A stretch of 64,000 nucleotides of DNA from Pontederia crassipes (lineage: Eukaryota > Streptophyta > Magnoliopsida > Commelinales > Pontederiaceae), in NCBI GenBank assembly GCA_030549335.1, contig CM060189.1:31395001-31459000 (forward strand), in the 5' to 3' direction. Shown here in pieces: positions 1 through 59,443 of this stretch (its first letter is position 1; the number at the start of each line of letters is the position of its first letter). Made by a program: the position numbers and the translations under genes. The notes beneath the pieces were generated by a model. That model was not told where the DNA came from. It ran no database searches and saw only the letters and a program-made list of their open reading frames with translations.

Positions 1-1640
1 TGGAAAATGCTCTGCAATTGGATGATGACACGCGTCGATGTTAAATTGGTTGATAGTTGATAGACAGACCAAAATGTCTGAGGACTAAAAGGTTGACAAA
101 CAATTGGCCGCTTGCTTATAAAGTAGTGTAATATGGTATTCTTGTAAGAGTAAACATATTTTTATTCTACGTATCATTTGATTAGAAGAGAATAAATTTT
201 AAAAATATAATATTTTATATTTAAAATATTTTATTACACAGAATTAGCGTTCAATATTATAATAACAAAAGAATATTTATATAATAATATATGATTGAAT
301 TTTTTTAAAAATAAAATATGTTTGAAAAAATTGAGAATAATCATATTCTTCTATTTTAGAAGAATAAATATATTCTTCTAACAAGATAAGATGGTTTCAC
401 GCTTTTCGAACTTTGATCGATATAATCTTATTCTATGAGTTGTTTAATTATATTCTCGAAATATTGACATATTCTTGTGTTTATTCCATAACCAAACAGG
501 TTGGGGATGAATAGTAGCTCCTCATTATTTAAGTAAATATTTTAAATTTGAATTTTTGTAAAGGTAAAAAATTTTCGTTGGGAGTTTTAGTCGCATGTTG
601 CTCGAAGCGACATCAAAATAATCGAGCTCGATGATGAATCGAGACTCTAATTCGTGACTAGCGCGCATAATTCTTAATGTCAGTTGAGTTAAACAATCGA
701 CGTCACTTTTAAGATTGCCAAATGAATGAGCAGGCTCTTACAAACAAAGAGATATTAATAATAGAAAAGCTAAATAAATAAAATTCTAACTTAATTCAGT
801 AAAAATAAACCTCATATAATTGGGGTGAGACAAAGTTTATAATGCATAATCTTTCCAAGTAATTTGAAAACTTGCATGCGAGGGAGAGATAAAGTAAACC
901 ATTCCATTTCTTATTCGACATAGCATCTAAAATATGCAGGTGAAACCTTTGTAAGCAAGAGTTGTCAGTTTCCTGTTCTCTGCGCTCCTCCCGGTGAGCG
1001 AGCAAGCGATGCGTTACTGCGTTTGCATGAGCAGGCGTATAAAGAGTTAGGAAAAAGTAGGTGTGGGCAGTTGGTACATGCAATTATTACTTGCTGGTGT
1101 GACCAGAACATGAACTCTTTCATTTACTTCCTTTGTTGGCGTTATTTACTTGAGATATGTGGGATCGTTTTCGCCCCGGCTAAAGTCATTAATGTCCATA
1201 GAAGTAGGTTTGAGGAGAGAGACTATATATATATATATATATATTATCATATATATACCCATTATTTATTTCTCTGTTTTTTTTCAGATATCCATTTTGG
1301 GCCTGTAGTCATCCAAGGATACTTCACTGTGATTGATCAATTTCCATGTTGGATGTTAGAAATATATTTCAGAAATTAAATCGAGTTGGGACTTGTCTGA
1401 CCCCATATTTATTATTCAATCTGACTATTTTTTGATGTCCTAAAAACTTGTGAGATTTAAACATCCTTAAAAAAAAAGGTGGTGTTAGCTAAATAGTCGT
1501 ATCTAACTCGGGCTAATTTCCAACAACCCAAATCCCACCTCTCCATTATGTGATCCAACGTGGTTGACCGATCCTTGTTTGTGTCAGAGAACTTAAGAAA
1601 CAAGTAAAAGGAACTCTGGCATTCAAGAGCTCACATAATT
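1..1640. other. AT-rich intergenic DNA, no gene recognised
   Basis: No coding frame here matches a protein family I know. The stretch from about 130 to 500 is very AT-rich with short motifs such as ATTCTTGT and ACAAGAATAT in opposite orientations, so a decayed MITE is possible, but I could not fix its ends. A (TA)n run lies at about 1226-1255. The last few hundred bases should hold the promoter of the F-box gene that follows, but I see no convincing TATA box. Confidence 0.5.
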
Positions 1641-1709
1641 CCTATAATCCTATCTGAGCTGTACATCTCTCATTCTCAAAGCTTCGCTTCTTATTTTTCT
1701 CTCTTTCTC

Positions 1710-4202
1710 ATGCATCTGGTTGATGTCTGCACTCTGCAGCGCCATCTGCGTCTGAAAAGACTTGACAACTCGTTTCCCATGTTTTTCGTTGCTGTCTCCT
1801 GCCTCCCTTTACTGCTCTTCATCTCCAAGCTACTCCCCAGGAAGCAACGCCCCTCGTTGGTGCATGACTTGACGCTGCTACTTGCTCTTCTGCTTCAGGA
1901 GTCCATTTGCTGCCTCATCCTTTGGCTGAAGAGTTTGAGGCTTCTCAGCTTGAGGGACCTCAAGTTTACAGTTGCTGCCGCGCCCATCAAGAGGAAATGT
2001 GGCCGTGTGGCAGAAGACGGAGCAGGAGAGCGGGCGGGCATGAGCATCCTGGATTTGCCGGAGCTGGCATTGGACTGCATCCTCGGCAAGCTCTCGCCGG
2101 CTGAGCTGTCGAGCATGGCGTGCGGTTGCCGCGCCCTGCGGGACATGTGCCGGAGCGACCATCTTTGGCAGAGGCGCGTGGAGGAGAAATGGGCCAACTT
2201 GTTCGGCAGGTCAGCAATCAGAGCGTGGGAGTCGTCTGTGGCCTCGATGAAGGACTCTTCCGACTGGAACAAACCAGGTAGAAGCCCGCGTCCGAAAGGC
2301 TGGCGGATGTCATCTCTTTCTTCTGTTCCTCCTCTCTCCTGGCTCACGCCCAAGTTCGGCGATGACATCAGACGTCGGAACAGACGTCTACGAGTTGATT
2401 CCTTTATGAATCTGTATCTGGAACTCGAGACTGGGAGGTTCTGGTTCCCTGCTCAGGTTTATAATCGAGAGGTATGCAGCCATTGCATCCTATTCCTTGG
2501 TATAAGCGGACTTGAGAAATGCTCAGTAGCACATTATGTTCTGTTCTGTGGTTATCTTCTTCATATCATTTTTCTGTTATTTTACTCTTTTTATAATGGC
2601 AGCATTTTCTTTGGATTCAATTATTCATTGTACCATCCTAAGAACATGTTTTTTTAGTATTTATATGATCTTCTCCTACTTTGTCCCTTTTGATCTTCTG
2701 AATGAATGCTTTTTTTTAGTGCAGAATGGGCATGTAGGATTCATGTTGTCTTGCTACGATGCTGAGCTTAGTTATGATCGGAAAACAGATACTTTCTTGG
2801 CAAGGTACAATTTCACAGCCTTACTATATAAAGTTGTATAGCTTTCTTTGAAATTGATACTTGATTCCAGTTACAGTCTCCATTTGATCAGAATTCAGAA
2901 GTTCTTTTAACTTGGTTTACAGGAATGCAAACATCAAATTTGTTACTTTCAATAAATAGTGCTCAGAGGCATTTCAACGGATCGAACACAATTGTGCTCA
3001 CCTCATGATTTCTGTCTTCTGTTTTCTTGATTCTCAGATACTCACCCCATGGGACAAGACCTGTGAAGATAGAGGAAGGGGTCTCATGGAACAGATTAAG
3101 AGCTCCTCCGGTCGACACCTCACCGTATGATCTTCACGTTTCTGATTGTTTGAACGAATTAAAGCCAGGCGATCATGTTGAGATTCAATGGAGGAAGGAC
3201 AAAGGACTTCCATATGGTGCGTGCTCACTGCTCAATGTACTGTTTTCAATTTTTTACTGCTGATCCATGCACTGTTTGATTTACTACATATCCAATTGAT
3301 CAGAGATTCAGAGTTGGTCTTCATTTCTGATGTCGACATCCTTTTGTTGGTAGAAGCTCACGTTTTGATTTCTACATGTATGATAAAATAGCATGCAAAT
3401 CAACGAGTAATGCAATTTTGTCATGTTATCTCAGGTTGGTGGTATGGAGTTGTGGGTCACTTGGAGTCATGTGATAAACATGAGCAACATTGCACCTGTC
3501 ACAAAAACGGTAAAAATCCTCATGTTGCTGTCCCAATTTTTGTGGTGATTCTGCAGTGAAACGAGAAACACACCATATAGTCAGAACAGAACTAGTACTT
3601 TGTATTCCACCTTGTGCACCTAAAGAAAAAATAGAATCCAAATTTGAATATTTCAGTCTTTCAGAGGTCCGAAAAAACATCTTATGTAGTGAAAATGGAC
3701 TATGATGAACTTGAGGGGCAACTGTCAACTTTCATCAACGCGGTGATAGTTACGGTTTGACTCGTACAATTGACATGTTTGTTTTGGCTACTACTTTTGA
3801 TGAAATACTGTACTTGACTATACAAATTCCCAATCAAATTCTTGCATATTTTCCTCAAGCATAACTATGTGACCATACGTGACTGCTGAACTACCTTTTT
3901 CAACTTTGGTATCACTTAGGATCCTTTTCAGACAACATCTTCTCTTAAGATGTAACTTTCGTCAGCATGTTCTCTTATGGAACTGAGCTGTTTGCAACCT
4001 TTCAATGGCAGATAGGATAACAGTCGAATTCAAGCAGTACAGTCCTGGTTCAAGATGGAGGAGGGCGTCGATAAGCCGAACAAGCAGCCGGAAGGAGGAA
4101 GGGAATGAGAGTGATGGCTTCTATGGAGGAATCAGGAAAATTTGCAGCCAGGATGAGATATCAGTCTGGAGGAAACTGTGGCCAGCTGAAATGCCTGAGT
4201 AG
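1710..4202 (+). CDS. F-box protein of the plant At2g26850/At2g41170-like type, five exons
   Basis: Likely the substrate-binding subunit of an SCF (SKP1-cullin-F-box) ubiquitin ligase. Exons are 1710-2471, 2725-2804, 3038-3216, 3435-3509 and 4012-4202; all junctions are GT-AG and phases agree, giving 428 codons plus stop. The F-box starts near residue 110 ([19 protein letters not shown]) and runs on to SDHLWQRR, the usual F-box ending. Downstream, conserved blocks such as [32 protein letters not shown] and [14 protein letters not shown] match the plant family. The N-terminus is hydrophobic ([19 protein letters not shown]), as in Arabidopsis relatives, which suggests a membrane-anchored F-box protein. 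The ATG at 1779 puts this segment first, as in homologues, and may be the true start (405 codons); 1710 is the longest frame. The substrate is unknown. The next gene, AGO6-like, is convergent. Confidence 0.88.
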
Positions 4203-7040: not shown

Positions 7041-10000
7041 TCAGCAGAAGAACATTGAGATACAAACCTTGGCGTCGAGCCTTGGCATTTCTGGTACTGC
7101 AGTTTGTCCAGAGGAAGTCTCTGAATGGTCCTCAAATTTTATGAACTGAGACATTTGTAGTGCTGCCAAGTGTGCATAGCAGACAGGAGCCACTAAAGCA
7201 AAAACAAACAAGAAGACTTCCATTAGCCATACATGTTGATGCTTTTCATGGTAAACAAAGAAGAGGTATACATGAGAAAGGTCTCATTAGCAAGTAGCTT
7301 ACCAACAGATACTGCAGTAGTGCTTCTCTGGTACCTGCATCAAGGAATCCATGTCATTTCCACCATCTTATTCCTTACATTACCACCAAAGTTGAAGATT
7401 AGACATCAAATACTTACGCATAGCGCATAGGAAAGTGAATGAACCAACTTCTGCAGATCATCTGGTGAGAAACCAATCTCATCAAGCAAGACTTGATAGT
7501 GCGTCGGCCTTGAAGTTCCCTAAAGTGAATTGACAGAAACAAGCTTGTGAAGACGGCACATTATGAAAGAATTAAGTTCATTATTTGTCGACATTGTTGT
7601 TGTTGTTGTTGTCGACATTGCACGTATCATTTAGTGATGCAAAGACCTGGACAGAAGTGTAAAGTTAAAATGCAACACTTACAATCATCCCGGCCTGAGC
7701 ACACATGTAGAAGTCATAATTCCTTGGATGAACAACAGTTCTATCTACCACAGTTCCTGGTAACCAAAGTTTGAAAATAAATTTTCAAGAAAGTATGCCA
7801 TTGAGGTCAATGCTAAAAAATAAAGAGGTAAAGGTTTGTCAAACCACACACCAGGAGGTACATTGTCAGGACTACCAGCTTGAAACAGTCTGGTATGGTG
7901 AATCTTTTGTGCAATGATAATGGTGAACTTGGGAAGTTTGGTCTCACCTAAATGCTCAAACGCCTGAGAGAAGATAGGTTAAATAAAAAGAGACAACTTG
8001 TTCATCTAATAAAAACAAAATGCATGTTTTGTATTGGAACCTTTATGATTTGATCGAGCTCGACATTCAACACTTGGTTGAATTGGGACTCACTCACACC
8101 ATCCCTGAAATTTTAAGCAAATGGTTGGTAAACAGAAATCAGCTTCCTCAGAAGAGATTGATAGAGTTCTCGGTAGCCCTGAATCAAAAGCAGCAGGTAT
8201 CACTCCAAGCAAGAAGAAGAAAGAGAAAAGGAAAACACCATCTGCTTTAGATGTTTCAATTGAAGGGCTAGGCAATCCTACTGCTGGTAAGAATTATGAA
8301 ATAAGTCTCCAGTTTATTGCTGCTCTTTTTTTGAGAGGGAGTTCATATATTGCATTAAGTATTGGATATAAATAGTAAGATATAATTATAAGCTTTGTAG
8401 TGAGGTTTTAAGAGTTAGTAGTATTTTGGAATTTAAGCTTACATGTTGTGCTCACACTTTTCAATCCCTTATGAAGCATCCTTACATCTGTCTCCTTTTT
8501 GTGTCTTGCTTCGGACTTCCTAGGTTAAATTACTGCATTGTGATTGTTATACAAAACTTCCTTCAAATGTGTGTCAACGATTGAAAATTTTTCTTAGTTG
8601 GCAATTGCTGACACTACTTCAAAGGAAGGTGCAATCAACCATGGTGATAATATTTTACACACTACTAACAAACTTTCGCATCAAAGTTTTAACCTCTGTT
8701 GAGCATCCGCACTTTGGGAGACATATTAGTACTTGTGTGAAGGTTTTGGATAACTCCGGCTATGTTTTATAGCCGGTCCCAAGCCCGGATAAAGGAGGAG
8801 GATTGTGTTAGGCCCCGACAGCCAGCGTAAAACCCTGTCGAATCTCATGAACATGGATCAACGAAGCGTCGTATGATCCATGTAGCCGACCCCACCTAGT
8901 GGGATAAGGCTTTGTTGTTGTTGTTGTTGGTTGGTAAACAGAAAACCATAATCAATAACCAGCAACCAGAAAATATAGTGTAAAATTGTTCAAAACTTTA
9001 TCAAGCACTAATGCAGCTGCACAAAAGTTCTCTAAACCAGAAGAAATTAGTTTGACTGGTCTTACAAACTTGAAAAACACAAACGGGCTTTTATGATACC
9101 TGAAAATGATCATGCAGGATGGTTTCCTTCTTCCACTACTCTGGTAAAAGTCAAGAAGCACTTCCCTGTGCTCCAATAAATCAAATACATTATACATATG
9201 AAATTACAATCAACATCAGACAATTTGAGATATTTATTGCTCAACCTAAGCCACTTTAAACATGTCTAGCAACTAAGGTCTATTATAGATTTTCGTAAAA
9301 GGTATTCAACCAGGACAGGCACCCGGTGCAAGATCCAACTAAACTATTCAGCTCAAAATAAACCATTCAAACTATTCAGAAGAAGCTAAGACAAATAGAT
9401 GATAATAAAATAGTAGAAATAATTAAATGTACAGATCAAACTAAACTATTCAGTAGCATGCATTTGTCAAATATCAATCATATTTACACAGTAATGTTTA
9501 CAGAACATATATTATTATATGATTAGTAACTTACAACAAAATAATATTAGGACAAGTAATAGTAAATTTTCTAGTCTCAACAATATAAATTATGATTAAC
9601 AAATTAAGCTCACTTTTTTAAAGTTGAATGATTAACAAAACAAACATCAAAGCCTAGAAAAGAAAGCATTTAATTTATTTCATCCAACGATTCAAAACAT
9701 CGAATCACTTTCACTCTGTACAAGTAAAATAATGATTAAATAAAAATAATAAGAAAGCAAACATGCAAAATAAAATAAGTTATACTACATTAAAGCAATT
9801 AAATGAAGATTGTTCAGAAAACCATCATAATAGGGAAAAAATAAGTACAATTACTCAATTTTCTTTTTCATTGAATGATTGAAAATTTCAAATTATTTTC
9901 ATTTTGTACATGACTCAAGAAAGGTAATAAGTAAACATGAAGCATAATGTAATGGGTAACAAAAACAATTGCAACAGGAAAAATATCAAACCTCATTAAT

Positions 10001-23879: not shown

Positions 23880-25010
23880 TCATTTAATGACACATAATTA
23901 AAGACACAAATTGAAGCGTCTTTATTTTACACAAAGTGTTTATTTATAAGGACGTTTTATATAGCGTTGGTATTATTATAAAATAATAAGGACACAAATA
24001 TATTTAGCGTCCTGATTTTAAAATTTTAAGACATTAATTTTGTGTCCCTATTTTAATTTAGAATATAAATATATTTTTATTTTAAATCTCATAATTTGGA
24101 TAACCTAGTGACACAAATTTAATTGTGTACCAATGATATTTGATAATAGGGATGCTTCTTATTATGCGTCCTAATAAAATTCAATAATAAAGACGTCACT
24201 GATTATGTGTCCCGATAATATTCGATAATAAGGATGTCACATATTATACGTCCTAATAAAATTCCATAATAGGGACGCCGCTTACCATGTGTCCTAATAA
24301 TATTATATAATAGGGACACCGCTTATTATGCGTCTTAAAAATATTAGATAATAAAGGCGTCGCTTATTATGTGTCGCAACAATATCTGATAACAAAGACA
24401 TCTTTTATTATGCGTCCCAATAATATTTGATAATATGGACATCGCTTATTATGCGTCCCAATAATATCCGATGATAGAGACGTTGCTTATTATGCGTCCC
24501 AATAAATAGGAACGTCGCTTTTTATGCGTCCCAATAAATAAGGACATGTCTTTTTATGCGTCCCAATAATATTAGATAATAAGGACACTGCTTGTAACGT
24601 GTCCCAATAAATAGGGACATCACGTTTTATGCATTCCAATAATATTAGACAATAGGGACACTGCTTATTATGCGTCCTAAAAATATTCAATAATAAAGAC
24701 GCCACTTATATTATGTCTCAATAATATTTGATAATAGGAACGTCTCTTATTATGCGTCCCAATAATATTCGATAATAGGGATATCACTTATTATGCGTCC
24801 CCATATTATTCGATATTAGGGACACTACTTTACAATGTATCCTTAAAATATTCGATAATAAGGACACACTTTACTATATGTCTCGAAAATATTCAATAAT
24901 AGGGATGATATATATTATGCGTCACTAAAATATTTGATAATGGGGATGCCATTACTCCTCTAATAAATTAAGAATATAAGAACGTAGCTATTTATGTCTT
25001 TACAATTGTA
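23880..25010. repeat. Left subterminal repeat array of the CACTA element
   Basis: About two dozen degenerate units, mostly 35-60 bp apart, alternate a segment like AATATTCGATAATAGGGAC with the core TTATTATGCGTCCCAATAA. GCGTC-type motifs on one strand alternate with GGACG-type motifs on the other, so many units are imperfect inverted pairs. In En/Spm such motifs bind TNPA. Confidence 0.8.
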
Positions 25011-37000: not shown

Positions 37001-39941
37001 TATAATATCATTTTTTTTAATTCTACTATTATTTCTTTTAAATATTATGGTAATTTTTTATTTATATTATCTTTTAACATACTTCTATTGTTACTTGAAA
37101 GATAAACAAGTATTATTTGATCGAAAAATGGTTGTGCTGGCTCTTTTATGTGGTAGCACCATCAACGTTCACTCAACACCATTTGATTCATGATGAATAG
37201 TTGATCAAAAAAGTTTTCAGATGGTGCTACCCCTTAAAAAAGTAGCACAACCGTTGAACCCTTATTTTATAATAATAAACATTTTGTGAATTGTTTTATT
37301 TATATTTATTGTAATTTAATTTTTTAATAAATATTAAGTATATATTTTTAGTTGATCAAAATATTATTTTTATTAACTTTTCATTTATATTATAAATATT
37401 ATTTTATATTAGTTCATCTATTTTGTTTAAATATTAATAATAGAATATGAAAATTTTTATTTGTGTTTGAATACATAATCTATTAATTTTTCATAAAATA
37501 TTATTATATTCCAAATATTATACACATTATAATTTTTAATTAATATTAAAAATTATTTGTTGTCCTATACTTTCTCACACTCTCTTCCATTGCATTTCAT
37601 GGTCCCATCTAAAATTTCACTCTTAACATAACTCCTTGTGGATCCCAACCTTTGGTTGGTTTCCTCTCGTGAAAAGACAACCATCACACTCAGATTCCAA
37701 TTTCTTCGATACTGTAGCAAGGAGTAGACAACTTTACAGCAGTTGAAACCAACCAAATGCAGTAGTTTTCAACTGCAGTATTTGGATTTACGTGTAAGTG
37801 TTTTTACTTCAAACCAAATTCACCCTAAAGGATGGAGGTGGACAATATAATGTGAAATACAATAAGAAAATAATAATCATAAGTTTTTTCTCATTTCTCA
37901 TCTTTAGAAATATCCTAGAGGTTTTATGCTAGTTTGTATCCATGTCTATTGAATTCATGCTCTGATTCTACCTGTTTTGATTCTGAATCCTCTTAAAGCT
38001 ATATCTCGGTTAGCCTCAAGGTGAAATTATTCTTTAGCAATATTTTTTATAACAAACAACAACAAAGCCTTATCCCACTAGGTGGGGAGCAATGTTTTTT
38101 ATATTTAAAAAAATTAGCCAAGAGCATTTCTACAACAACAACAACAACAAAGCCTTATCCCACTAGGTGGGGTCGGCTACATGGATCATACGACGCCATT
38201 CCGCTCTTTTAGTAACCAAACCTTTCGGTATATTATTCACCAATAGATCTTGCTCTATTAGTTCGCCAAGTGTCCGCCTTGGCCTCCCTCTCCCTCTTTT
38301 AATCGGACTCCAGATTATTTGATCTACTCTTCTTACTGGCGCATCTAATGGTCTTCTCTGAACATGACCAAATCATCTCAAACGATTCTCTACCATTTTC
38401 TCATTAATAGGAGCCACTCCGACTTGTTCACGTATATGGTCATTCCTAATCTTATCTAATCTTGTATGACCACACATCCATCTCAACATCCTCATTTCGG
38501 CTACCCCTACTTTACGTTCATGTTGTCCCTTCATAGCCCAACATTCACTATCATATAACATTGCTGGTCTTATAGCAGTACGATAGAATTTTTCTTTAAC
38601 TTTATTGGGTACTTTTCTATCACAAAGAACTCCAGTGGTTTTCCTCCACTTACACCAACCAGCTTGAATTCTATGATTAACATCGTCATCAATCTTACCA
38701 TCTTGTCTTACAATTGATCCTAAATATTTAAACTTTGTCACTTGAGGAATTATATCCTCCCCTAGCCTAACTTCAAATCGTCTCTAAGTTGTTTATTTGT
38801 GAAATTGTTATGCATATATTCTATTTTATTCCTACATAAACAAAAACCCTTTGACTCCAACGTATTTCTCCATATTTCCAATTTTGTATTAATCTCTTCT
38901 CTTGAATCCGTTAAAAGTACTATATCATCCGCAAATAGCATGCACTTAGGTACCTTTCTACAATGCCTAAAATTATATGGAGAAATGCAAATAGCCAAGA
39001 GCATTTCTACAATGCCTAAAATTATATGAACAAAACTTCAGTCATCAGTGGTCGCAATATCTTCTCAAAAAAAAAATCAGTGGTCGCAATAACTATCCTT
39101 CCTTGATTTGTGTTAGTAAAGAGAAATGCAATTAACAGTCAGCTGAAGCTTCTTTTGTTTACCTACTCTGCATATGAATTAGTGAGTGGGGAAGAAACTT
39201 ATAAGTGGCTAAAAGTACAGAGGTCTTTGCATTACCAAGTTTATGGTGCTGAATGTTGCATATGTTCAGAAACTAGATGATTGTGAAACTAATGAGTATA
39301 TAGGTGCAAAAGTTTATGGAACCTTTTGGAATTGAGAGAAAGATCTTGAACTCAGAGAATAGTATATTGGCACAAGTAGTGTGTAGACTTCATAAAGATC
39401 AGAAGGGATCTAAAAATGTATCATCGGACCTTGATGGCTGGGTAGAGTTTTTTCCTACTGAATTAAAGAGTGAATTGGTTCTCTACTTTACTCATTCTTT
39501 TATGTGTAAGGCTTCCTTTGTGAATTGAATAGCGCATTGGACAACGAGACTTAGTAACTGAATGGTATAATTCCTATTTTGGTGCAGAGCAATTAACTCC
39601 GCCTATGTTTTATAGTCGGTCCTAAACCCGGATAAAGGAGGAGAGTTGTGTTAGGTCCCGACAGCCAGCGTAAAACCCTGTCGAATCTCATGAACATGAA
39701 TCAACGAAGTCGTATGATCCATGTAACCGACCCCACCTAATGGGATAAGGTTTTGTTGTTGTTGTTAGTGCAGAGCAATTATCCCCCAGCACATTATCCT
39801 TTCCCTGGGCCACCAAACGCTTCAGTTGCAACATTAGTATCTATGGGATTTGATGCGGATTCCGCAAGGCAAGCCCTCATGCAGGCTAGAAATGATATAA
39901 ATGTGGCAGCAACGAATCTCCTAGAAGCACAAGCAAGATAA
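30867..39941 (+). CDS. UBAC2: UBAC2-like rhomboid-like/UBA-domain membrane protein, with a broken frame
   Basis: UBAC2-type proteins are polytopic ER/Golgi membrane proteins with a catalytically dead rhomboid fold and a C-terminal UBA domain; plant members act in trafficking and ubiquitin-linked processes. Exons seen: about 31043-31150, 31506-31646, 31777-31843, 32964-33107, 33184-33285, 35869-35986, 39774-39941. Diagnostic segments are [57 protein letters not shown] and the UBA domain [18 protein letters not shown]...NLLEAQAR. The start ATGATGAACGGAGGACCTTC (30867) matches the family, but about 130 bp of CT-rich sequence separates it from NAPVTKSF. In exon 32964-33107 a run of four T (33068-33071) shifts the frame and gives a stop; one T fewer restores YLAG and the next exon's phase. 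A short exon before the UBA exon is not found; phases demand one. Confidence 0.8.
33539..33578 (-). mobile_element. 40-bp RTE LINE tail fragment
   Basis: On the minus strand this reads GCCGACCCCACCTAGTGGGA then TAAGGCTTTGTTGTTGTTG, the last 40 bp of the RTE family. Possible 6-bp duplication CTAATA at both sides. It lies in an intron of the UBAC2-like gene. Confidence 0.75.
34588..34866 (+). repeat. Two tandem copies of a ~140-bp unit with a tRNA-like box B
   Basis: Two copies (about 34588-34727 and 34728-34866), close to 90% alike by eye, share CAAACTTGAATG, GATGTACAAGAGTGT, GAGAGCTGTGGATTTGTGA, AAGGTCCAAGGTTCAATCCC and GGGATTTTTCCTATTAG. GGTTCAATCCC is close to the pol III box B consensus, so the unit could be a tRNA-derived SINE present as a tandem dimer. 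I do not see a clear box A or a 3' tail. It lies in an intron of the UBAC2-like gene. Confidence 0.6.
35603..35800 (+). mobile_element. SINE with (TTG)n tail, copy 2, 19-bp TSD
   Basis: The SINE spans 35622-35781, starting AACTCCGCCTATGTTTTATA and ending in (TTG)n. Flanking TTGTATTTGACATATGTGG (35603-35621) and TTGTATTTGACATATGCGG (35782-35800) differ at one base. It lacks the short segment TGCGTCGTATGATCC before the conserved 3' end, so the LINE-like tail starts a little later here. Confidence 0.85.
36247..36404 (-). mobile_element. SINE with (TTG)n tail, copy 3
   Basis: Reverse-orientation copy from the tail (CAACAACAACAAAGCC at 36247) to CCTCCTTTATCCGGGCTTGG; it stops about 15 bp short of the family's 5' end, so it is 5'-truncated. 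No clear duplication seen. Intron of the UBAC2-like gene. Confidence 0.8.
38036..38103 (-). mobile_element. 36-bp RTE LINE insertion with 16-bp TSD
   Basis: Only the last 36 bp of the RTE family (38052-38087: on the minus strand CCCCACCTAGTGGGATAAGG, then the TTG tail) is present. AGCAATATTTTTTATA (38036-38051) and AGCAATGTTTTTTATA (38088-38103) flank it and differ at one base. It is one of the shortest LINE insertions that still shows its target-site duplication. Confidence 0.8.
38115..39012 (-). mobile_element. 5'-truncated RTE-clade LINE (reverse transcriptase end), 21-bp TSD
   Basis: The element (38136-38991) encodes, on the minus strand, the end of a reverse transcriptase. An FADD box ([12 protein letters not shown]) is followed, in another frame, by [27 protein letters not shown] and [20 protein letters not shown], which are landmarks of the RTE clade. 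The coding region continues to within about 60 bp of the (TTG)n tail, so there is almost no 3' UTR. A 21-bp direct repeat (38115-38135 and 38992-39012, core AGCCAAGAGCATTTCTACAA) flanks it. One frame change separates the FADD part from the rest. It is 5'-truncated and lies in an intron of the UBAC2-like gene. Confidence 0.9.
39582..39781 (+). mobile_element. SINE, copy 4, inserted at and duplicating a splice acceptor
   Basis: The SINE (39596-39767) is flanked by GTGCAGAGCAATTA at 39582-39595 and 39768-39781. The duplicated target holds the 3' splice site of the last UBAC2-like exon (TGCAG|AGCAATTA). After insertion the downstream copy of the acceptor adjoins the intact exon (39774-39941), so the SINE lies wholly in the intron if that copy is used. 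The SINE's TTG tail now supplies the pyrimidine-rich tract. Confidence 0.85.
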
Positions 39942-44000: not shown

Positions 44001-44704
44001 CAACGCTCTCAAACACTTGCAGAATTAGCCGAATAACAACATAATGCATATACAATTGGTCATGTTCCTTTAGAAGGTCACCTTCACAGTTCATCATAAG
44101 TATGAGGTTCTGAACTAGGTTGTTGATGCATTAAGTCGTCGAGGGAAGAGCTTTCCTGTTGGTCAAATGTAAGTTGTTAATGGATCCCTTTGTTTAAATG
44201 AACTTTGAGGATCTAGAGTTCGACCATGGTCAGAAAACTGTTAGCTAGGCAAAAGAATGGGAGGATGGCACATCCATGAAGGATTCTTGTACCTAGACAA
44301 TCGTCTCTGTCTTTCCCAATCTTCCTTGTGTGAATAGGTCATCAAGGATCTGCATAGCAGAGGTCTTGGAGGCCACTTCAGATGAGGCAAAACTATTGCA
44401 GTTATAAAAAAATGTCTCCTTTTGGCCAAAACTGCGAGGACATGTGGAGTGCTTTTTGAAATTATGTCAAGTTTGTCAAGTCGCGAGGAGTTATTTCCAA
44501 AATACTGGACACTATCTACCACTGCCAATGCTATAGATGGACTTCATCCTCGGACTCCTGTGAACTCAATTACCTAAGATATGAATTTCCTAGCTTGAAG
44601 CAAGATATTTGACCAGTAAAATCATTGTGATTTTCTTTAAAGAAGTGGTTAGGTTGTATGGCATTCTTCGTACTATCATGTTGCATAGAGATTCTAAATT
44701 CCTA

Positions 44705-44882
44705 TAACTCCGCCTATGTTTTATAGCCGGTCCCAAGTCCGGATAAAGAAGGAGGGTTGTGTTAGGCTCCGATAACCAACGTAAAATCCTATCGAATCTC
44801 ATGAACATGGATCAACGAATGCGTCGTATGATCCATGTAGCCGACCCCACCTAGTGGGATAAGACTTTGTTGTTGTTGTTGT
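44705..44882 (+). mobile_element. SINE with (TTG)n tail, copy 5, nested in the Gypsy fossil
   Basis: Full-length family member from AACTCCGCCTATGTTTTATA to (TTG)n, in the same orientation as the host element. No clear target-site duplication is left. Confidence 0.85.
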
Positions 44883-45573
44883 GGCACGATTGATCAACTC
44901 ATTGTGTTTAAATAGCACCACCCACCCTTAGAGTGATGTATAGATGAAGATTGTCAATCGCTCATGGGGCAATTTGATTTGGGCAATTTCCAGTGAGAAG
45001 CCTAAATAGTGGAATCTTTCACTTGCTCAACCTGAGTTTGCCTTTAATAGCTTTGTTAATCACACAATATGATGTGTACCTTTTATGATATTTACGTCAT
45101 TTGCCCTGACAAGTTGTTGACATCACTATTCTGGCTAGCTGTTCTTCTCTTGATGGAATTGCCGACATGATACATCTTCTTGATGGGCAAAGGACTTGTA
45201 GGATACAACTAGAGGAATCAAAATTGAGGTATAAGACTATTTTTTATCGTAAGCGATGCCAGCAAATCTAATGTGAAGGAAATCTTGTGATGGTTTATCT
45301 TCGGAAAGAGCATTTTCCTGGGGAAAGATACGATATGATGCAAAACAAAAAGTTTGATGATCAATGATAATGCATATATTGCCCACTTGTTGGAAGGTTT
45401 TGATATCTCACCAACTTTCAATGTGTCTGTTTTCTTATTGTGCACCCAATTTAATTGTTATTGTAACCCAATTCAATTGTCCAATGCTTGGGGTCAAGCA
45501 TTTTGAAAGGGGGAACTGATGCAGGAAATATTATGATCATGCAAAAAGTAATGATGGAAATGTATTAGGTATT

Positions 45574-55800: not shown

Positions 55801-57532
55801 AAATCTAACCTGATCAACAAATCCCTCATTTGGGCTGACAACATCGCGAGCTTGTTTCAAAGATTCAAGTGCATCTGAAGAACAAAATTAATTATGAAGA
55901 AAAGGAACGAATTAAAGCAAGTGCATCTGATCGTACTTTTTTGCTAGGTGTTACAAAAGAAACCAAAGCTTATTAATCTTGACAATATTACAATCGTAAA
56001 TATCACATAATCTTTCAGAAAGATTTCCAGACCTTCTGCAGACTTCTGTTCTGATTTCATTAAGTATGCTGTCAGGATAGCGGCACTGCAATAGAGCTCA
56101 AAAAGTTTGAAAATTTGTAGGAAACAGAAAATGTAATAAGTAGTAAGTATATACAAGTACACACGACCACTGTTAACCGCAAAGCCACATCAACAGATGC
56201 TTGGAAACACCACTAGCCTAAAGGCTGGACACTTGTCATACAGAGTGTAAATCGGTAATTTGCTTTTAACAGAGCAAAACATGAATAGCCAGACCAATGG
56301 CATGTTCACTTTGACAAGGATTAAAAAAGCAATACAAGGTTTCACGAGATCCTGAGAAATAAAGCAATACAAGGTTTCACGAGATCCTGAGAAATACACA
56401 CACCACCAAAGCCTTATCCCACTAGGTGGGGTCGGCTACATGGATCATACGACGCCATTCCGTATTCGTTGATCCATGTTCATGCGATTCGACAGGGTTT
56501 TACGCTGGCTGTCGGGGCCTAACACAACCCTCCTCCTTTATCCGGGCTTGGGACCGGCTATAAAACATAGGCGGAGTTAAAGCAATACAAAATATTTTCA
56601 GAAATAAAGCAATACAAAATATTTTTTCCCAACTAGTAGGGAGGTGACGCTTTTCAGAAGGTAGCAGTCTAATACTGCTGTATTAAACATCAATTGCATA
56701 ATTATGTCTGCTCCATCTCTGAATTCACGCAGACTCTCCACTGGAAAGATTAAAAATAAAATATTAAGTATTATGTTCTCCTAATTGAATGAACGCATGC
56801 CTTATTGCAATTTGTTTTTCAACTTGTATACGAAAGCTGCAGGGTAAGTGTGTGGGAGCGGAGCAAGTTAAGATACCAGCAAGATAGCTTGAGCTTCTCA
56901 ACTAAGTCTTCTTTTTTTTCGTATCTTTTACACTTACTGGAAAACCCATATAATATGCTACATCAAGGAACCAGTTTCAGTTTGACCTTTAATGCTGAAA
57001 GCAAAATGTAACCAATCCCATCCAACAACCACTCATAAATGTGCTTCCACCATACCCCAAAATCTAAAACTAGGCAAGGAACATATTAGTTAACCAAGAA
57101 GAAATGGCAGTAATACCTTCTAGAGACGCCGGCGAAGCAGTGCACGAGGACGACGCCTCCCTCCTTCCTGCTCCTTTCAATGAAGTCCAAGCACACGTCC
57201 AAATAGTCGAGCAGGTTCTCATCCTCGGTGTCACGCAACGGGACGGCCATCCTCTGCAACTTGAGTTCCGTCCCCGCTCGCTCGATCGAGTAGAGGACGC
57301 GGTGGGGCGGGAGCGCCCTCCTGGCGGCGCACTCGTGTTCCCCGGCGAGGACGGTGCGTGTCTCCTCAGCGGGGATGACGATCCCAGGGCGCCAGTCGGA
57401 GAAAAAGGAGATGGAAGCGGTGGAGAGAAGGGAGAGGACATGGGTGATTCCCTCCGAACCGCCGCCGCTCCGGAGGGCGTTGGCGGCATCGGTGATGTCC
57501 CCCAGAAAGAGACCCTCTCGGACCAACCACAT
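49811..57532 (-). CDS. DUSP12: DUSP12/YVH1-type dual-specificity protein phosphatase, six exons
   Basis: YVH1/DUSP12 proteins join a dual-specificity phosphatase domain to a C-terminal zinc-binding domain; in yeast and mammals they act in 60S ribosome maturation and stress responses. Exons: 57532-57117, 56085-56033, 55874-55810, 55281-55203, 50386-50090 and 49971-49811. All borders are GT-AG with matching phases, giving 356 residues and an unbroken frame. The start MWLVREGLFLGD aligns with the family's N-terminus. The active-site loop HCFAGVSRS (HCX5R) spans the first splice junction, with the general acid in PLRDTEDENLLDYLD. The zinc domain carries CKKCRR, CVNCDARLGHFNW and CSCGSWISPAFQIHKSKVD. 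Exon 1 is very GC-rich, unlike the rest. The 4.8-kb fourth intron is swollen by L1 remnants and microsatellites. Confidence 0.93.
50391..50434 (-). repeat. (CAA)n flanked by direct repeats near a splice acceptor: possible tail-only insertion
   Basis: A CAA run (TTG on the minus strand) at about 50405-50419 lies between two copies of AACAACGCCCAAGC. Like the example at 7587, this could be an RTE/SINE tail inserted without a body. It sits just upstream of the acceptor of DUSP12 exon 5 (50386), within its pyrimidine-rich tract. Slippage plus a local duplication would also explain it. Confidence 0.45.
50715..51176 (+). mobile_element. Short poly(A) retroposon (L1-mobilised), 430 bp, 16-bp TSD
   Basis: Exact copies of AAGTTCAAATGCACCA (50715-50730, 51161-51176) flank 50731-51160, which ends in an A-run. 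The 3' part (CTTTTTCGTAACCCCTACTA, then TTATTAATGGAACTATTGG) resembles an L1 3' end. A segment of about 28 bp with CCTCAATTGGGATGCAAGAG is present twice inside. It lies in DUSP12 intron 4. Confidence 0.75.
52240..53430 (+). mobile_element. L1-type LINE remnants (zf-RVT region)
   Basis: The frame around 53040-53240 reads HPVCESHDEDINYLFFNCIY, then ARQVWAEAQCNCLDC, matching the zinc-finger-like zf-RVT domain (C..C...E...H.F..C....W) at the end of plant L1 ORF2. A similar weaker segment (VTDFWKSFRSGG-like) occurs near 52300. Frames are broken. Borders are uncertain; it lies in DUSP12 intron 4. Confidence 0.6.
53670..53755 (+). repeat. (CCA/CCG)n microsatellite
   Basis: An interrupted CCA/CCG triplet repeat of about 80 bp. 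It gives a poly-proline open frame, but it lies in an intron of the opposite-strand DUSP12 gene and has no family match, so it is not called a gene. Confidence 0.85.
54150..54480 (+). repeat. Three diverged tandem copies of a ~100-bp unit
   Basis: Copies start near 54164, 54226 and 54370 and share GGATCATATA, AACTTCCCAGCTT, GCCAAATAC and CTATATGTCCCAAGACTATT. The first copy is shortened. Function unknown; intron of DUSP12. Confidence 0.65.
56404..56578 (-). mobile_element. SINE with (TTG)n tail, copy 7
   Basis: Full-length copy in DUSP12 intron 1, from a degenerate tail (ACCACCAAAGCC) to AACTCCGCCTATGTTTTATA on the minus strand, i.e. in the sense of DUSP12. It keeps both the LINE-like 3' end and the SINE head. 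Just before it a segment of about 35 bp (AATACAAGGTTTCACGAGAT...) is repeated in tandem; AAAGCAATACAA occurs on both sides and may be the remains of the target duplication. Confidence 0.82.
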
Positions 57533-59443
57533 ATCCGCCGGCGGTTGGATTCCTCCTCCGACGACGATGGGCGTCGGCGATCGGAAAGGAAGCAGAGGAA
57601 ATTTGAAAGCCCCAATAGTTCGATCGAAAGGATGGGTCTGGCTTTTCGCTGTGAATGATTTGGACTCGAAACAGCTTTTTTTCTCCTGTTTTTTGCTTAA
57701 AATAAAAAAAGTTAAATTAAGATATTTATTTTATTTAAAGATTTTTTTAGTTCTATCTGAGTTATTAAAAATTTCAAACTATTTTAAATATAGTAGACAA
57801 TAAATACAAGGTTGCCATTTCTTCTAAGAAATTGTTTTTGATAAAATTAACAAGTACGTCATTTTATGCGAAAAACTATTTTTAATATGTTTAATCAGTT
57901 TTACATATATGGGTTCAATTTAGATTGCAAGGCTTAAAAATAGTAAGACAACTGGTTTAATAAAGATGCAAGTGATAAAATGGAAATTCGAAAAGTAAAT
58001 TAATATAATTTAAAATATTTTTAGTATTTATATTTGCAGTATTTGTCTTTATCTTATTCGGAAAGCTATAAGTAAACGTCTGAACAATAATTTTGATGTG
58101 TAGCTGAAATTTGAAATATGATGTAAGTAGTGATTAAAATAAAATATATCTATTCATTATACGATAAAGTATTTAATTCGATTCTAGTTCTTAAAAAAAA
58201 TATTTTTCATTTCCACTTAACAGATATAACTTTTAACATGTAACATATTTTTTCTCATTATTTTTTTTCCTAATATTACGTTGCTATAATAACTTAACCA
58301 TCGCGACCTCAACAATTAAATATTAGGGTTTAAGGAAGCTCTAGAGTCTAGACCCTTTTTTACCTCAACAATTCGGTTGTGTTAAAGGTGTTGAGCTCTG
58401 GTCCGGTACGATGCATTCCAAGTCGTGTCAATTCCTTTTTTTTTAGTTTCATAGGTCCTATTTTCTCCCTCGAGGCGTCATGTTCGTCAGATTATTTTTT
58501 TAGATCGTATTTATCTTAATATTTTTAAAATCGAACCGAACACATCAACCGATCATTATTTGACTAATTTAATCGGATAATTCGATTTTTTATTAAAATA
58601 TAATTTTTAATGATTTCAAAAATATATTATGAATAGTAGTTTCAAAATAATATAAAAAATATAGTTCTTAGTACTGAACATTAATCTTTTTCTTATTTTG
58701 TAAATATATTTACAATAAATTTATTGAACATCTTAACCATATATTTAGGTGTACCATACATTTATATATGAATACATTTATAAAAATGGGAAAACTGTTT
58801 ACTATGATTTTAGAAGAATATGTTCTAACTTAGCTATCGCTTGACATGTAAAAAAATAAAGTATTAAGTAGCGGATAACGCTTTAACTGAATCAATACGT
58901 TAGTGTGAGTTTGGTAAATATTTTTTTAAAAGTAGCATTTAGATATTTTTGTACAAAATGGTATAAGTTATTTTCACTAGTTTATAGAATATTGACTATA
59001 GTGATTTTATAACTTATTGATATTATACCATCATTCTTTTAATATAAAATTTTGTTTAATCTTTAAGCATCATATATTATTTTTTTATTTTTATATATCA
59101 CTTATTTTTACTTAAAATCCAAACAAGATTTTTATTTTAAAATAATCAATATTTTATATTAAAATAATAATTTTAAAATATTGATATTCAAATAAAATAT
59201 TATAAATTAATTATTATGGATATGATGTTTATAATAATAAATCTAAATTATATTGTTATGCTTATAAGAATAAATCAATAAGTGTATACTAATTTGACCG
59301 TTATATTTATCAGATTTATAAATAAATCAATGTGTTATCGTCTAATTAAATCACTATTCTTTAATCAAAATGTTATCCGTTAATCGAATTGATAATTTTA
59401 CCAAACAAAATCTTAATACAAAACTTGAATTCCCCTCTCCTTT
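57533..59443. other. Upstream region of DUSP12 and AT-rich intergenic DNA
   Basis: The first 130 bases are GC-rich and belong to the DUSP12 5' UTR/promoter. Beyond about 57700 the DNA is AT-rich with no coding frame or element ends that I recognise. Confidence 0.5.

Follow-up and report, generated by a model that had tools for sequence, protein, structure and literature searches.

Host exon-like and intron-like DNA joined to a SINE within one target-site duplication in an Argonaute intron of Pontederia crassipes: a candidate 5' transduction in a plant

The analysed stretch was a 64-kb window of Pontederia crassipes DNA, and the locus of interest lies in an Argonaute gene on its minus strand, which we take to be AGO4-like. 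Minus-strand coding stretches ending at 9100 and beginning at 8104 joined to ...MIIFRDGVSESQFNQVLN..., and a 45-residue peptide across the join was searched against the PDB. It matched 23 distinct sequences, all named Argonaute. In the two printed alignments (argonaute-2), the match was continuous across the join, and a gap of one residue lay at another position. The weakest of the matches was argonaute 10 (E = 4e-4), presumably the plant Argonaute among them. The intron between the two coding stretches holds an insertion that is antisense to the gene, as the preliminary description had claimed. The insertion lies 34 nt from the intron acceptor, next to which the duplication of the 17-mer has re-created the native sequence. 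This restored sequence may have kept the Argonaute intron spliceable. Elsewhere in the window, coding stretches with an F-box domain (1608-2657, plus strand) and a dual-specificity phosphatase domain (57086-57730, minus strand) were observed, together with a minisatellite of 41-bp period (24063-24944). The features of the locus and a related LINE are listed in Table 1.

Table 1. Coordinates of the insertion, its parts and related features within the 64-kb window. A slash marks a border between two bases.
Feature	Position	Strand	Basis
Argonaute intron with insertion	8105-9099	-	995 bp; 189 bp without the insert and one TSD copy
Left target-site duplication (TSD)	8122-8138		Exact repeat; TTTT at 8111-8114 (-11 to -8); A/T border
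5'-truncated host exon fragment (putative)	8139-8286	+	49 complete codons from 8139; coding statistic; purine-rich first codon positions
Splice-donor-like site CTG/GTAAGA	8284-8292	+	GT at 8287-8288; coding signal falls here; putatively phase 1
Intron-like T-rich DNA	8287-8751	+	Composition; negative coding scores in sampled windows
SINE head, untruncated	8752-8865	+	Aligned with six other copies; 2 substitutions from the majority sequence
Hairpin spanning the SINE head/tail junction	8851-8883	+	10-bp perfect arms; 14 pairs in RNA fold, z = -3.8
LINE-derived 3' end and (TTG)n tail	8866-8927	+	Identity with LINE 38196-38133 (minus strand)
Right target-site duplication	8928-8944		17 bp, exact repeat
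5'-truncated RTE-type LINE (38784-38991 putative)	38133-38991	-	21-bp TSD; 3' end common with SINE

The borders of the insertion were defined by an exact 17-bp direct repeat, at 8122-8138 and 8928-8944. The 789 bp between the two copies (8139-8927) consist of 613 bp (8139-8751) followed by an untruncated SINE, and the second copy directly meets the (TTG)n tail of the SINE at 8927/8928. When the 995 upstream bases were shuffled (first-order, 3000 times), the 61-nt right flank had no word of more than 15 in common with any shuffled sequence. A chance origin of the repeat was rejected because its length was not reached in these shuffles, and the exact 17-bp target duplication around 789 bp proposed earlier was upheld. 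When 5 kb upstream was scanned, the only right-flank match outside TTG tracts was at 8122-8138, and no right-flank repeat adjoined the SINE head at 8752, both among the matches listed. The segment 8139-8751 is single-copy within the window, and its longest other match was 27 nt. The TSD encloses the entire insert, as in TPRT. DNA of host character lies between the left TSD and an element whose 3' end adjoins the right TSD, which is the border arrangement of a 5' transduction.

The SINE was compared with its relatives in the window. Its homology starts at 8752 with AACTCC, the same start as in the other untruncated copies, which agrees with the earlier claim of a complete SINE whose (TTG)n tail adjoins the second duplication. 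The common 3' end occurs at 12 sites of the window (at most 6 mismatches in 27), and seven copies bear a head, six of them untruncated and one, S36, 5'-truncated. The 8752 copy is one of the least diverged, with 2 head substitutions in 104 aligned columns; the other six have 1, 3, 5, 6, 8 and 8. A non-TTG repeat of at least 13 bp was found upstream of 8 of the 12 tail sites, and the other four had none among the matches listed. The TSD adjoins the head in three of the five other untruncated copies (S35, S39 and S49). S56 is ambiguous because of a partial tandem repeat in its flank, where up to ~20 bp could separate TSD and head. For S44 (44702-44884), no TSD was found among the matches listed within 5 kb upstream. 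Only in the 8752 copy are TSD and head separated by hundreds of bases.

The origin of the SINE head was also considered. ARAGORN found no tRNA in the window, the SINE copies held no exact match to the Pol III B-box pattern, and no Rfam match was seen at the gathering score. The head could derive from a LINE 5' end. The length of the junction between head and LINE-derived tail varies in most of the seven copies; elsewhere indels are few, with one 3-bp gap in the heads. The junction sits in a hairpin loop, and the fold is strong in the 8752 copy, weak in S49 and absent in S35. Either the reverse transcriptase would have slipped in the loop of the hairpin, or head and LINE tail would have been fused independently on several occasions. 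S56 (56420-56502, minus strand) has extra junction bases, CGGAATGG, whose match in the LINE lies further upstream than that of the other copies; this copy may represent a separate fusion, or else the ancestral and longest form. A 30-nt SINE-tail pattern had no exact match in viral contigs. A plasmid search with the whole insert gave a sole match of 48 bp at the SINE-tail end (8880-8927, against the Alicyclobacillus fastidiosus plasmid NZ_CP104070.1; 53 bp, 85%, E = 3e-6), which is probably a chance match in TTG-rich DNA.

The 3' end of the SINE was shared with a LINE of the window. Positions 8866-8929, of which the final two belong to the TSD, were identical (64/64) to minus-strand positions 38196-38133. 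The LINE carries an ORF of 136 residues (38373-38783) with no Pfam match, which we take to be the C-terminal part of a plant RTE element. The shared 3' end and the microsatellite-like (TTG)n tail are those of TPRT by an RTE LINE, the RTE label being our assumed reading of this ORF. The accessible text of PMC3747384 describes the RTE LINEs of flowering plants as ending in (TTG)n or (TTGATG)n. It also describes the tobacco TS SINE, which has a 3' end in common with an RTE LINE and a (TTG)n tail, as here. The plant RTE insertion signature, according to the accessible part of PMC13295347, consists of a T stretch ~10 nt upstream and a TSD that starts with T, typically with A beside it; legume RTE-associated SINEs resemble the present insertion in both the T stretch and the T at the start of the TSD.

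The signature was fully present at the 8122 insertion. In its sequence, ATTTTAAGCAAA/TGG, TTTT occupies -11 to -8 and the border is A/T. Across the TSD-bounded elements of the window it was present only in part: a T-run of at least 3 in -16 to -4 was seen in five of eight and A/T in four of eight. These counts omit a ninth, tail-only site at 7585, and the background frequency was 0.29 for TTT and 0.12 for TTTT. The proposed use of RTE LINE machinery through the LINE-like 3' end of the SINE was thus in accord with both the 64/64 identity and the target signature. The omitted site lies in the Argonaute gene region (7585-7620), where a 12-bp direct repeat TTGTCGACATTG (7585-7596 and 7609-7620) encloses only (TTG)4. 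It resembles an RTE or SINE insertion reduced by truncation to the tail alone, or else a microsatellite that arose locally.

Coding potential was then measured in the 613 bp upstream of the SINE. Peptide P0001 comprises the 49 codons of the exon-like fragment plus one codon read into the donor. A codon statistic, for which the Argonaute, phosphatase and F-box genes of the window itself supplied 858 training codons, gave +5.8 bits for 8139-8286, a value reached in 0 of 5000 base shuffles. The in-frame extension beyond the donor scored -11.1 bits, and the next 148 nt after the donor scored -41 to -69 bits in the three forward frames. Within the intron-like part, all six frames were negative in each of seven sampled windows. 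T content was 22% in the exon versus 38% in the intron-like part (measured on 8287-8749). The coding signal collapsed at CTG/GTAAGA and T content rose there, in line with the splice donor and intron-like DNA of the preliminary description. Its open exon at 8139-8287 held only in part. The fragment was coding-like; however, it ends at 8286, with GT at 8287-8288, and the reading frame from 8139 stays open past the donor, to 8372. A second coding block, an ORF at 8598-8699, was rejected because it is out of phase with the donor and the seven sampled windows were negative in six frames.

Several of these measures limit the reading of an exon. Openness of the frame would arise by chance with P = 0.039 for that frame and P = 0.117 for any of three (base shuffles), so openness alone was weak coding evidence and the coding statistic was stronger. 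Across the 64 kb, 26 of 1278 equal-length windows scored as high in the best of six frames. Some of these were known exons, which also formed the training set, and others were low-complexity DNA near 27 kb; the statistic was therefore a good but not specific indicator of an exon. The strongest single composition change point in 8139-8749 was at 8241 (3 of 500 shuffles as strong), which counts against a sharp border at 8286/8287. The exon peptide had no relative in Pfam. It had none in the PDB either, where the one match (E = 5.9) was low-complexity, and no match in GTDB or viral contigs, that is, prokaryote and viral DNA, in which little was expected. From the order of coding signal, donor and T-rich DNA, we read 8139-8286 as the terminal part of an exon and the DNA from 8287 onward as the beginning of its intron, both oriented like the SINE.

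We consider it very likely that host exon, intron and SINE were retrotransposed together in a single, recent event. That one RTE-mediated event produced the whole composite is a reading we hold with high confidence. The opposite reading, two independent events, would have a plain SINE insert itself beside older DNA of the Argonaute intron, or beside another insert, with the 17-bp match coincidental or a foreign TSD. This is extremely improbable. The repeat is exact at the outer borders at a length that the shuffles never attained, and the right flank matched only there and not beside the SINE head, among the matches listed; no evidence supporting two events was found in the window. A processed pseudogene was rejected because the donor and the intron-like DNA after it are retained, there is no poly(A) and the tail is (TTG)n. 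Capture by a Helitron or a Pack-type element was unsupported, because the insert is bounded by a TSD and a tail of TPRT type.

For the RNA that served as template, we consider it probable, on balance, that a read-through, unspliced transcript was mobilised by 5' transduction, the SINE relying on the machinery of an RTE LINE. A copy of the SINE would have lain in sense orientation in an intron of a putative donor gene, ~465 bp downstream of the exon. Transcription would have started upstream and reached into the SINE while the intron was still unspliced. The LINE protein would recognise the LINE-like 3' end of the SINE inside this pre-mRNA and nick the Argonaute intron at TTTTAAGCAAA/T, with reverse transcription primed at the (UUG)n tail. 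Synthesis of the cDNA would have proceeded through the SINE and the intron into the end of the exon, and its stop within the exon would be ordinary 5' truncation. The empty site before insertion would be a 189-bp Argonaute intron with one TGGTTGGTAAACAGAAA. A single RNA as template and a donor gene with an intronic SINE are thus presumed by this model. Because SINE transcripts normally extend beyond the tail while the copies terminate at (TTG)n, starting reverse transcription inside a longer RNA would make no special demand. Since seven head-bearing copies occur in 64 kb, one would expect many pre-mRNAs here to carry a sense SINE in an intron. In the accessible part of PMC5787218, Au SINEs are described in wheat introns, with intron retention suggested. 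Such intron-retaining RNA is the type that the read-through model needs.

Both this transduction and a template jump are compatible with the borders. In a template jump, the RTE reverse transcriptase would finish at the 5' end of the SINE RNA and switch to an unlinked, unspliced pre-mRNA, giving a two-part chimera (three-part, counting the LINE-derived tail) within one TSD pair. The border of the SINE part coincides with the usual 5' end of these SINEs, as a jump would require, and this junction speaks against read-through to the extent that a template jump predicts it equally well. The same is true of the youth of the 8752 copy, because a jump from a fresh SINE transcript would give as few head substitutions (2 in 104 columns). 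LINE chimeras with TSDs, including tripartite ones with a SINE, are documented in fungi and mammals, and the fungal jump sites lie near predicted hairpins (accessible text of PMC2104539). However, a jump would require the enzyme to land in mid-intron on the acceptor RNA, 465 nt beyond the donor, where neither a natural RNA 3' end nor poly(A) has left a trace. In the fungal and mouse tripartite examples described in the accessible text of PMC2104539, the partner RNAs were repetitive or non-coding, and for the spliced MAP3K13-L1 chimera a template jump was not favoured by the authors in the accessible part of PMC13174262. A template jump was therefore judged rather unlikely, and read-through was favoured, because exon, donor and intron are contiguous in the sense of the SINE and the host part meets an untruncated SINE in mid-intron. 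An intron continuous with an untruncated SINE is what is expected if the SINE lay in that intron. Read-through of an ordinary flank would instead start from a cryptic promoter upstream of the source SINE, and the coding-like 148 bp would be a pseudogene fragment or chance. The exon peptide without a match in Pfam or the PDB, the frame open beyond the donor and the 26 of 1278 windows with equal scores are in keeping with it; the missing match and the position of the high-scoring windows near 27 kb, outside known genes, also count against read-through of a pre-mRNA. However, the coding statistic exceeded all 5000 base shuffles and fell at a strong donor, and an ordinary flank was considered very unlikely.

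The read-through reading was compared with known systems, as described in the accessible parts of the sources. In the 5'-transduction groups of human SVA, as here, a non-autonomous element is mobilised in trans, the RNA starts upstream, host DNA comes first and one TSD pair is present. SVA depends on L1 and poly(A), whereas a plant SINE, RTE-type machinery and (TTG)n are involved here, and exon and unspliced intron occur together. Human L1 insertions with mRNA or lncRNA at the 5' end number 17 (Law and Burns 2026, PMC13174262), of which 15 are in sense, 15 map to transcript starts and six end exactly at splice donors. They also have the host exon 5' of the element, mostly near full-length elements and, in the examples, TSDs. 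However, their exons are spliced, and here the donor is retained unused and followed by intron. The LINE template-switch chimeras of Magnaporthe and mammals likewise hold fused RNA copies inside one TSD pair of 14-16 bp, and some include a SINE (PMC2104539). In the examples described there the partner RNAs are repeated or non-coding, whereas the partner here is a pre-mRNA-like fragment found once in the window.

Host-DNA hitch-hiking with such elements is known in primates, and Helitrons are another route of plant gene capture. According to the accessible text of a 2026 review, plant gene capture is described via LTR elements and Pack-type DNA elements, and 5' transduction in plants is said to be unreported. 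Among the matches listed from a search of the open-access literature, no title or start of an abstract described a plant SINE 5' transduction. The chances seem to us evenly balanced that this is the first documented plant 5' transduction, and that sense SINEs in introns, by virtue of their RTE 3' end, serve as portable starts of reverse transcription that make intron-containing pre-mRNAs substrates of RTE machinery. If this is true, a SINE-dense genome would shuffle exons with a working splice donor, unlike processed retrogenes. The SINE/RTE route would move exons together with their splice donors, and it could be common where RTE-tailed SINEs are dense.
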